DNA from: Fibrobacter sp. UWP2
Lineage (GTDB): Bacteria; Fibrobacterota; Fibrobacteria; Fibrobacterales; Fibrobacteraceae
NCBI RefSeq assembly: GCF_900141705.1
Contig: NZ_FQYM01000001.1
Span: 124,001 to 188,000 of the forward strand
Length of the DNA: 64,000 bases
Direction: 5' to 3'
Positions 37,482 to 39,628 of the stretch are shown here, piece after piece. The first letter of the stretch is position 1, and every line of letters starts with the position of its first letter. Made by a program: the position numbers and the translations under genes. The notes under the pieces were generated by a model, which saw only the letters and a list, made by a program, of their open reading frames with translations, did not search any database and was not told where the DNA came from.

Positions 37482-37555
37482 CGGAATATAGCTCAGCCTG
37501 GTAGAGCGCTTGCTTCGGGAGCAAGAGGTCGTGAGTTCGAATCTCGCTATTCCGA
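37482..37555 (+). tRNA. tRNA-Pro (anticodon CGG)
   Basis: A complete 74-base cloverleaf: acceptor CGGAATA/TATTCCG, D stem GCTC/GAGC, anticodon stem CTTGC/GCAAG with loop TTCGGGA (anticodon CGG), T arm GTGAG-TTCGAAT-CTCGC, discriminator A. CCA is not encoded. The 3' half is copied downstream several times in both orientations. Confidence 0.95.
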
Positions 37556-37560
37556 TAAAA

Positions 37561-37598
37561 CGAAAAAGGACCCCACCAAGGGGTCCTTTTCGTTTTTT
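37561..37598 (+). terminator. tRNA-Pro terminator
   Basis: AAAAGGACCCC / GGGGTCCTTTT stem with an ACCAA loop followed by CGTTTTTT. With small bulges the palindrome continues outward, pairing the tRNA 3' end with the inverted copy that follows. Confidence 0.9.
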
Positions 37599-37601
37599 AT
37601 T

Positions 37602-37765
37602 CGGAATATAGCGCGAGATGAGAACTCACGAAGTGAGTTCGACTACCGCGGCGCGGAACGAAGTGAAACGCGACGCGGGAGGCCTTGACCTGCAACAAAG
37701 TTGCAGGCAAGCCCGAAGGGCAAAACGTAAACGAAGTGCACGTTTTGGCAATCTCGCTATTCCGA
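37602..37765 (+). repeat. tRNA-Pro-derived structured repeat, unit 1
   Basis: It starts with an inverted copy of the tRNA 3' half (CGGAATATAGCGCGAGAT and GAACTCAC), then a GAA loop, then a direct copy of the T-arm start (GTGAGTTCGA), about 108 bases of successive hairpins, and finally ATCTCGCTATTCCGA, the tRNA 3' end. The outer stem pairs the two ends. Inner hairpins include CTGCAAC/GTTGCAG, GCCC-GAA-GGGC and AAAACGT/ACGTTTT. No protein-coding potential is evident. Confidence 0.8.
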
Positions 37766-37800
37766 TACGAAAAGCACCCCTTGCGGGTGCTTTTTTCGTA
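37766..37800 (+). terminator. Terminator-like hairpin between the two structured repeats
   Basis: TACGAAAAGCACCC / GGGTGCTTTTTTCGTA with a CTTGC loop. It takes the place that the tRNA terminator has upstream of unit 1. Confidence 0.8.
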
Positions 37801-37801
37801 T

Positions 37802-37957
37802 CGGAATTATACGCGAGATGAGAACTCACGAAGTGAGTTCGACTAAATCGCCATTTGAACGCAGTGAATTTAGGCGATTTAGAGATTACGCCGCCAGGCG
37901 TAACCCGAAGGGCAAAAGTTGAACATCGTGAAACTTTTGTCAATCTCGCTATTCCGA
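37802..37957 (+). repeat. tRNA-Pro-derived structured repeat, unit 2
   Basis: Same plan as unit 1 with the same ends and first hairpin, but the inner stems have different sequence and keep their pairing: CTAAATCGCC/GGCGATTTAG, TTACGCC/GGCGTAA, CCC-GAA-GGG, CAAAAGTT/AACTTTTG. It ends in ATCTCGCTATTCCGA, followed by a small GCGAGAT-GCA-ATCTCGC hairpin at 37959-37975. Confidence 0.8.
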
Positions 37958-37987
37958 TGCGAGATGCAATCTCGCAAACAGATCTTT

Positions 37988-38227
37988 TTACGCAACCTGC
38001 TTCTTGCGGGGGCGCTTGGCCCCGGAAACAAATTTCGGTTCCATCTTTTCTGCTTTAGCCTGGGCAAGGAACATGTTAATCAGCGTCTGGTAAGGAATAT
38101 CGGTCTTCTCCGAAAGTTCCTTGAAGTAAGCGAGAACCGACTCACTAATATTTATGCAAATCGTCTTTTTCAATTTCTTCGCATACGGATTTTTCACCGC
38201 ATTACTAAAATCATAGTTTTTCTTCAT
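37988..38227 (-). CDS. brnA: BrnA-type antitoxin
   Basis: A 79-residue basic protein with a ribbon-helix-helix DNA-binding fold (KTICINISESVLAYFKEL then PYQTLINMFLAQA). In BrnT/BrnA modules the antitoxin dimer neutralises BrnT and represses the operon. The ATG at 38227 has AGGAGG six bases upstream and overlaps the toxin stop by four bases (ATGA), so translation of the two is coupled. The Lys/Arg-rich tail ends KRPRKKQVA. Confidence 0.85.
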   Translation of the reverse strand: MKKNYDFSNAVKNPYAKKLKKTICINISESVLAYFKELSEKTDIPYQTLINMFLAQAKAEKMEPKFVSGAKRPRKKQVA

Positions 38228-38520
38228 AGCGGCCTCCTTTTCTTCCAATACTGTTCAGTTTCTTTCTTGTTCGCCTTTCGAGATGAAATAATGCGGATTA
38301 TCTCATCGGTCTCCGAACCACGTTCACAAAAACACACTAACAAGGTGTTCATCATTGACGACATTCCCATTAAAACAAATCGATCCTCATCGTCAGAGTG
38401 TTTCTCGTCAGCAAGCAAGAGAGCGTTTTCGTCATAGAATACAGTCTGAGCCTCTTCAAATGTCACCTTGTGTTTGGCAAAATTCTTCTTGGCTTTATCC
38501 TCATCCCACTCAAAAATCAT
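38224..38520 (-). CDS. brnT: BrnT-type ribonuclease toxin
   Basis: A 98-residue protein with the characteristic BrnT start FEWDEDKAKKNFAKHKVTFEEAQTVF, the RFVLMG...LLVCFCERG strand region and the C-terminal IIRIISSRKANKKE. BrnT folds like RelE-type RNases and stops growth by cleaving RNA when BrnA is lost. The start ATG at 38520 lies six bases after a perfect -10 box, so its message should be leaderless. The usual toxin-first order is kept. A stress role or stabilisation of the neighbouring tRNA-linked element is plausible. Confidence 0.88.
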   Translation of the reverse strand: MIFEWDEDKAKKNFAKHKVTFEEAQTVFYDENALLLADEKHSDDEDRFVLMGMSSMMNTLLVCFCERGSETDEIIRIISSRKANKKETEQYWKKRRPL

Positions 38521-38949
38521 ATATATATTATATATATTAGAACAATAATTGTCAATAGGTTGCACAATTTTTTCCCGTTCAGAAAGCGCAACTTGCATAA
38601 TTACAGATTTTGTTTTTATTTTCCGATTCATTAGTGCATTTTATCTTTTTCAACGGATGGACCTCCGCCTGGCGGAATAGGGGGACGTCCCTACCCTTAC
38701 ATATAAACGGATTTACCGACATTTTTGAGCCATTTCCCACCGTAAAAAGATCTTTGCAATTTTTCAACAATACACCCTTAACGCTCCGCCAACCACTTTT
38801 TCCACCTACCCTCACCAAAAATGTGATTAAAATCCCCTTTTTGCGACAAAAAAGCGCATTTTTGCATTTTCGTGACACTTCCCGCGTTGTTTTTTGATAT
38901 TTTACATTCCATAAGGACCAGAATGGTCCCGCCGAAATTAGGAGTATCC
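38521..38949. other. Intergenic region between brnT and the thioredoxin-like gene
   Basis: It holds the brnT promoter at the left. The middle (38655-38690) has an imperfect palindrome, CCTCCGCCTGGCGGAATAGG, and GGGACGTCCC. I see no gene; a 99-codon minus-strand frame at 38579-38878 lacks protein-like composition. Confidence 0.5.
38527..38555 (-). promoter_or_regulatory. Consensus promoter of brnTA
   Basis: On the minus strand TTGACA (38555-38550), 17 bases, TATAAT (38532-38527), an exact sigma-70 consensus. The flanking ATATATATTATATATATT palindrome is a likely BrnA operator. Confidence 0.85.
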
Positions 38950-39498: not shown

Positions 39499-39510
39499 GG
39501 CACAAGTTCG

Positions 39511-39566
39511 CCGCCGTGAGTACGAAAAGGGCCCCCAGAAGGGGGCCCTTTTCGTACTCACGGCGG
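39511..39566. terminator. 26-base perfect palindrome ending both the thioredoxin and tRNA-Arg transcripts
   Basis: The arms 39511-39536 and 39541-39566 pair perfectly around an AGAA loop. The right arm includes the last 12 bases of tRNA-Arg; the left arm mirrors them. The core AAAAGGGCCCCC / GGGGGCCCTTTT is a two-way terminator. Confidence 0.9.
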
Positions 39567-39628
39567 GAGTCGAACCCACGACCCGCTGCTTAGAAGGCAG
39601 CTGCTCTATCCAACTGAGCTACGCGAGC
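39555..39628 (-). tRNA. tRNA-Arg (anticodon TCT)
   Basis: A complete 74-base cloverleaf on the minus strand: acceptor GCTCGCG/CGTGAGT (with G-T pairs), D stem GCTC/GAGC, anticodon stem GCTGC/GCAGC with loop CTTCTAA, T arm GTGGG-TTCGACT-CCCGC, discriminator A. CCA is not encoded. Confidence 0.95.

Follow-up and report, generated by a model that had tools for sequence, protein, structure and literature searches.

The window, a 64,000-nucleotide stretch of the genome of Fibrobacter sp. UWP2, contains a tRNA-Pro(CGG) gene that is followed on the same strand by two structured units, each preceded by a terminator-type hairpin, and by a minimal third hairpin (Table 1). Both units open with an inverted arm, the 5' strand of a helix we call P1, continue with a T-arm hairpin (P2) and a core of further hairpins, and end with a direct copy of the tRNA 3' end. 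The first-pass annotation of the locus had described this layout, including the second terminator-like hairpin that separates the units, and every part was found where it had been placed. In unit 2, CGGAAT starts at 37802, GCGAGAT at 37813, and the T-arm hairpin, identical to that of unit 1, spans 37820-37842. The tRNA-derived left parts of the two units (45 nt) are 91% identical but the cores belong to different subtypes, so unit 2 is no simple tandem copy of unit 1. The short hairpin behind unit 2 is probably the leftover of a third unit reduced to P1. The inverted arm of the window units is an imperfect reverse complement in which the T-loop TC is answered by GA (GATGAGAAC for GATTCGAAC), a change also seen in E. 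coli and in the majority of units elsewhere. Atypical of the family is the long complement to the acceptor stem (CGGAATA); most Fibrobacter units pair little past the T-stem part. Two neighbours are included in the table: a BrnT/BrnA-type toxin-antitoxin pair, and a tRNA-Arg(TCT) that carries no unit but whose terminator hairpin reaches into the tRNA 3' strand.

Table 1. Features of the tRNA-Pro(CGG) array and its surroundings (positions within the window)
Feature	Position	Strand	Evidence or remark
tRNA-Pro(CGG), host tRNA	37482..37555	+	ARAGORN; Rfam tRNA 68.2 bits
Source of the copied T arm within tRNA-Pro(CGG)	37531-37540		Source of the copied 3' half: 37541-37555
Terminator-type hairpin between tRNA-Pro and unit 1	37557..37598	+	Inverted repeat I4, T run
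Unit 1, RtT-type, core subtype CTTGA..CAAGCCC	37602..37765	+	Fold z -7.8; R1 50.5 bits, E 3.1e-10 (own genome)
Unit 1 left arm: P1 5' strand (CGGAATA..GCGAGAT), GA, P2 T-arm hairpin GAACTCAC-GAA-GTGAGTTC, GA	37602..37642	+	CGGAATA from 37602, GCGAGAT from 37613, GAGAACTCAC-GAA-GTGAGTTCGA at 37620-37642
Unit 1 core: P3, P4, CCCGAAGGG hairpin (37712-37720), P5	37643..37749	+	Fold, motif position
Unit 1 tail: direct copy of the tRNA 3' end AATCTCGCTATTCCGA, closing P1	37750..37765	+	Repeat family D3
Inter-unit terminator-type hairpin	37766..37800	+	Inverted repeat I3, T run
Unit 2, RtT-type, core subtype GATTACG..CGTAACCC	37802..37957	+	Fold z -6.9; R1 58.9 bits, E 1.7e-12; RtT 24.0 bits
Unit 2 core: P3 (37843-37852/37873-37882), P4 (37886-37903), CCCGAAGGG (37904-37912), P5	37843..37941	+	Fold, motif, covariation in 24 related units
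Unit 2 tail: direct copy of the tRNA 3' end (AATCTCGCTATTCCGA)	37942..37957	+	Repeat family D3
Minimal third hairpin GCGAGAT-GCA-ATCTCGC	37959..37975	+	
BrnT/BrnA-type toxin-antitoxin pair	37988-38631	-	Adjoins the end of the tRNA-Pro array; Pfam BrnT_toxin E 3.8e-27, BrnA_antitoxin E 9.6e-7
tRNA-Arg(TCT), without unit	39509-39628	-	Terminator hairpin GCCGTGAGTACGAAAAGGG..CCCTTTTCGTACTCACGGC carries the acceptor end as an inverted copy

Folded as RNA, unit 1 reaches -74.8 kcal/mol (z = -7.8) and unit 2 -61.0 kcal/mol (z = -6.9), levels that none of 200 shuffles attained; as DNA, unit 1 has z-scores of -9.2 on the + strand and -7.8 on the - strand. The tRNA-sense strand is the more stable of the two in 79% of units. 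RNAalifold, run on a mixed alignment (A1), recovered only P1, P2 and the pairs of CCCGAAGGG; because the lengths of P3-P5 are too variable for this approach, an alignment restricted to one subtype was used for the core. Across 24 diverse Fibrobacter units of that subtype, the 27 core pairs are standard in 95% of cases and 19 of them show two-sided change, whereas shuffled controls reach at most 79% standard pairs and slid partners 23-40%. The core is a covarying hairpin set around CCCGNAGGG. The subtype alignment also allows a true T-stem between the direct copies, so that two alternative closings of the unit are possible. As had been proposed at the outset, the array is not a mere duplication of the tRNA, and it is more than an attachment site. 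GATGAG..CGA could suggest a hammerhead, but this reading was dropped, since residues known from the core of that ribozyme are missing.

The ends of the units match the tRNA next to which they lie. The collected loci contain 185 motif matches. A tRNA on the same strand precedes 163 of these, another 17 are close to the end of a contig, and five have no tRNA, two of the five looking protein-coding. The tail has at most two mismatches in 16 positions to the 3' end of the adjacent tRNA in 125 of the 163, whereas none of the 163 comes within three mismatches of a tRNA of another kind. Of 94 Fibrobacter units, 85 carry an exact copy of the four variable T-stem nucleotides (49-52), against an average of 1.55 of 4 for other-kind tRNAs; outside Fibrobacter the copying is looser (exact in 28 of 140 units). 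Rare T-loop variants are mirrored as well: a tRNA-Pro with GTCCGA is followed by units with GGACC..GGTCCGA (L239), and a tRNA-Gly by units with GTTGAGAAC (L211). The identity between tail and tRNA sets in abruptly on the left, at T-loop position 58|59, remains high as far as the tRNA end and declines beyond; the split of the T-arm copy between TTCGA and ATCTCG, noticed in the window by the first-pass annotation, is a sharp boundary in related loci as well. In Fibrobacter the host tRNAs are Pro(CGG), Pro(TGG), Ser(CGA), Gly(CCC) and Ala(GGC), with Arg(TCT) found once in degenerate form; elsewhere they include Lys, Tyr, Ser, Gln, Arg, Met, Glu, Phe, Val, Pro and others.

Units of this plan are spread across phyla. 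A scan of GTDB species genomes with the conserved motifs as an exact pattern returned at least 119 stretches, almost all of them immediately downstream of a tRNA on the same strand, with about a dozen kinds of tRNA represented; as the scan was based on these motifs, their conservation inside the collected set is partly by construction. Among the matches listed are many orders of Gammaproteobacteria, Betaproteobacteria, Fibrobacter (including the isolate F. intestinalis ATCC 43854) and metagenome-assembled genomes (MAGs) labelled Verrucomicrobia, Kiritimatiellae, Chlamydiae, Deltaproteobacteria, Bdellovibrionales and Chlorobiota. Such labels may err: a unit labelled Acidobacteria (L072), nearly identical to one from Sedimenticola (L057), is probably mislabelled and may reflect a binning error. 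A near-exact search of the window's own genome returned this locus only; distant relatives came into view only with a structure model (R1) and family searches. Within the window's phylum, 69 of 168 genomes and 7 of 41 genera have R1 matches; in the genus, 73 of 80 genomes gave DNA matches, and named Fibrobacter records bear units of the window type. Of the genomes behind the scan loci, 34 were searched whole and gave up to 21 matches each. Three candidates (L067, L144 and L167) were rejected because they look protein-coding, and two weak model matches in the own genome (L347 and L348) have no tRNA and look like chance. Behind Fibrobacter tRNA-Glu(TTC), short tandem repeats consist of the tRNA 3' end and a terminator and have no RtT core (L048, L053). 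In some tRNA-Ser arrays (L046, L047, L208), full units are followed by much shorter ones with only P1 and one hairpin, which are apparently deletion derivatives.

The number of units changes between genomes, and individual units are precisely present or absent. E. coli has tyrT-type matches in one to nine places per genome. In its lysT-lysQ operon, shortened units follow lysT, lysW, lysY and lysZ, and a fuller unit follows lysQ. The lysT and lysW units are precisely missing from strain L26, and the lysZ unit from L26 and TK3046, each loss taking out a linker and its unit, from one copy of the tRNA 3' end to the next. Since lys-operon units are found in other enterobacteria, the empty sites in E. 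coli look like deletions. Counted at 80% coverage or more, unit-specific sequence is present in 3520 (lysT), 3715 (lysW) and 1792 (lysZ) of 5,426 genomes, in counts that include some cross-matches from one unit to another. In 11 enterobacterial genomes, none of 64 within-genome pairs of cores at different tRNAs exceeds 0.8 identity, and mean core identity is 0.543 within genomes against 0.525 between them; cores barely more alike within a genome than between genomes mean that no recent transposition is seen. The idea that the element copies itself next to tRNAs, raised in the first-pass annotation, is thus not borne out; what can be observed is that entire units come and go between stretches identical to the tRNA. 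Repeated template switching, raised there too, would by itself leave a core conserved across phyla unexplained. No mobilising enzyme was found, phage records gave no match to the E. coli unit, and plasmid records gave none to the window unit. Viral contigs gave no match with the strict pattern and five with a looser one, of which four resemble prophage ends with the host array behind and one resembles a chance coding match. The viral contigs L341, L343, L344 and L345 resemble right ends of prophages in tRNA-Ser, behind which the host RtT array continues.

We consider it likely that the window units form a satellite repeat anchored to a tRNA, with a structured core that is conserved, and, as part of the same judgement, that they are the Fibrobacterota versions of the kind of repeat found at E. 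coli tyrT (rtT/RtT), to which they would be distantly related. A unit may be viewed as an incomplete copy of the adjacent tRNA whose T-loop houses the conserved hairpin core; a strand complementary to the copied tRNA 3' end closes the unit. Unequal recombination or slippage between the tRNA-identical stretches would create and remove units, and the same process could keep the copies tRNA-like. Read-through from the tRNA promoter would transcribe the unit, and the RNA would fold with P1 closing the core; it may then be trimmed at its tRNA-like 3' end, yielding a stable small RNA that mimics the 3' end of a tRNA. These last steps draw partly on the E. coli literature.

Our best reading is that RtT-type units are made as RNA at least in gammaproteobacteria, with a function that we infer. 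The annotated rttR RNA of E. coli has its 3' end exactly at the CCACCA tail of the unit, and it is this one annotated E. coli RNA on which the tRNA-like 3' end is based; the lys-operon units sit between tRNAs, and the greater stability of the tRNA-sense strand in most units also speaks for RNA. RtT small RNAs are reported from Actinobacillus, in a paper that also cites a claimed role of E. coli rtT RNA around amino-acid limitation and the stringent response (PMC4986893). A structured RNA made by read-through of the tRNA promoter, one of the possibilities listed at first pass, stays a serious explanation. However, 49 of 68 Fibrobacter loci and 30 of the 88 other loci have, according to a simple detector, a terminator that separates the tRNA from its first unit; little read-through RNA would be made at such loci.

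An alternative explanation is that the unit acts as folded single-stranded DNA, its tRNA-sense GNA mini-hairpins being targeted by a strand-specific enzyme or the replication machinery; the P1 arm would pair with the tRNA 3' sequence as a guide, and the RNA would be a by-product. GNA triloops cap 227 of 609 core hairpins on the tRNA-sense strand (37%) compared with 18 of 1244 in shuffles (1.4%), two of 574 on the opposite strand and nine of 320 among neighbouring linker hairpins, and 209 of the 227 are closed by a C-G pair. GNA loops on G-C stems are described as extraordinarily stable DNA mini-hairpins (PMC4686876), and GAA is named the most stable loop known in DNA (PMC9828363). The frequent preceding terminators and the GNA excess fit a DNA-level role, as does the stronger DNA fold of unit 1 on the + strand. 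However, neither an enzyme nor an autonomous copy was found, recent movement between tRNAs is not seen, RNA is known in E. coli and Actinobacillus, and GNA loops may serve RNA too, GNRA loops likewise lying mainly on the + strand (49 vs 3). Because the RNA is documented, we keep the RNA reading as the likelier one and regard the single-stranded DNA reading, including its guide role for P1, as unlikely. We also think it improbable that the units are a widespread DNA-level element found only behind tRNA genes, with a sense strand of GNA mini-hairpins around a conserved core and ends rewritten to the host tRNA by an undescribed strand-specific copying process.

The units might instead be remnants of integration by a tyrosine recombinase, unit plus linker forming a tiny element and the tail being the duplicated attachment site at the tRNA 3' end. 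Such an origin would account for the direct copy from T-loop to 3' end with its sharp left edge and for precise presence or absence between direct copies, and prophages do seem to enter such tRNAs, the array being left behind attR. Nevertheless, a covarying core and tRNA-matched P1 and P2 are foreign to attachment sites, the units come without an integrase gene, the empty E. coli sites look like deletions for the reason given above, and no match was found to the E. coli unit in phage records or to the window unit in plasmid records; we therefore rate this origin as quite improbable.

Two full tRNA genes are interrupted by a core at TTCGA|ATC, a tRNA-Pro(TGG) of the own genome (L346) and a tRNA-Glu of Lacimicrobium (L300), and these could be taken to mean that the core is an intron-like insertion that is spliced out. 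However, the acceptor strand of the second exon is decayed in both, intact copies adjoin, and the exons do not rebuild a sound tRNA. These features speak against splicing; a deletion between GTTCGA repeats, after a tRNA and its unit had been duplicated, explains both genes, and we rejected the spliced intron as very improbable. The L346 region (C4:21800-22620) holds two damaged tRNA-Pro(TGG) copies, one with an RtT-type core in its T-loop and one also broken near the anticodon, beside an intact copy that has its own unit. That the window array is a one-off rearrangement or replication accident at tRNA-Pro, for which only the single hit of the near-exact own-genome search speaks, deserves practically no credence and is already refuted by the DNA matches across the genus and by the same plan beside other tRNAs of related genomes and in other phyla.

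A repeat known mainly from E. coli tRNA-Tyr thus belongs to a class that crosses phyla and follows a rule: the outer parts copy the adjoining tRNA and the core retains its fold. A comparative set is now at hand for the role of rtT RNA, for the upkeep of arrays in tRNA operons and for the matching of repeats to their neighbours, and the excess of DNA-type GNA loops makes the question of RNA or DNA directly testable.

Among known systems, the tRNA attachment sites of integrases also copy the 3' part of a tRNA up to the mature 3' end. Unlike the window units, they are not known to have an inverted arm, a covarying core or tandem arrays. The REP/BIME palindromes of enterobacteria are short intergenic hairpin repeats too, but, in contrast to the window units, they are not known to be linked to tRNAs or to match a neighbour's sequence. 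Enterobacterial BIME elements are reported to resemble rtT to some extent (PMC2965389). Like the window units, the RtT-family small RNAs Arrc20 and Arrc21 of Actinobacillus, whose expression was detected by RT-PCR, adjoin non-Tyr tRNAs (Asn and Lys); unlike them, they are described as lying upstream of tRNA genes, and the tRNA-matching rule does not figure in the parts of the paper that describe them (PMC4986893). RtT is mentioned in the literature from enterobacteria and Pasteurellaceae (including PMC4986893). In the open-licence literature we found no description of the tRNA-matching rule or of RtT-type units outside Gammaproteobacteria, though such descriptions may exist.

The closest counterpart is the 178-bp repeat of E. 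coli tyrT/tyrV with its rtT/RttR RNA. The first-pass annotation knew of no described element with the plan of the window units, and this has to be corrected, as the tyrT repeat (RtT, Rfam RF00391) has the same plan. The original paper on rtT is reportedly that of Bosl and Kersten (1991). The RtT model aligns to window unit 2 over its full length (1-130 of 130) at 24.0 bits, under the gathering cut-off of 45 and with an E-value (0.017-0.031) that is weak on its own. Other Fibrobacter units, in tRNA-Ser arrays, reach up to 37.6 bits over the full length (E down to 1.6e-5 per genome), which is also below the cut-off, and a Verrucomicrobia MAG passes it with 45.6 bits (L092); among 14 control genomes the model matches E. 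coli only. The window units differ from the tyrT repeats in their longer P3 and P5, the preceding terminator, the tRNA-Pro host and the RtT score below the cut-off. In MG1655 the repeat reads GGGGAAGGAT-GA-GAAGCTTCG..AAGGTTCGA-P3-P4-CCCGAAGGGC-P5-TAATCCTTCCCCCACCACCA and its T-loop is split after TTCGA. The window units likewise lie in tandem behind a tRNA and each close with the 3' end of that tRNA; they share the inverted arm, with GA for TC in both (GATGAGAA for GATTCGAA), the T-arm hairpin with the conserved GATGAGAA..GTTCGA (GATGAGAA..GGTTCGA in the stretch common to both), the order P3-P4-CCCGAAGGG-P5 with the conserved CCCGNAGGG, and the split of the T-loop.
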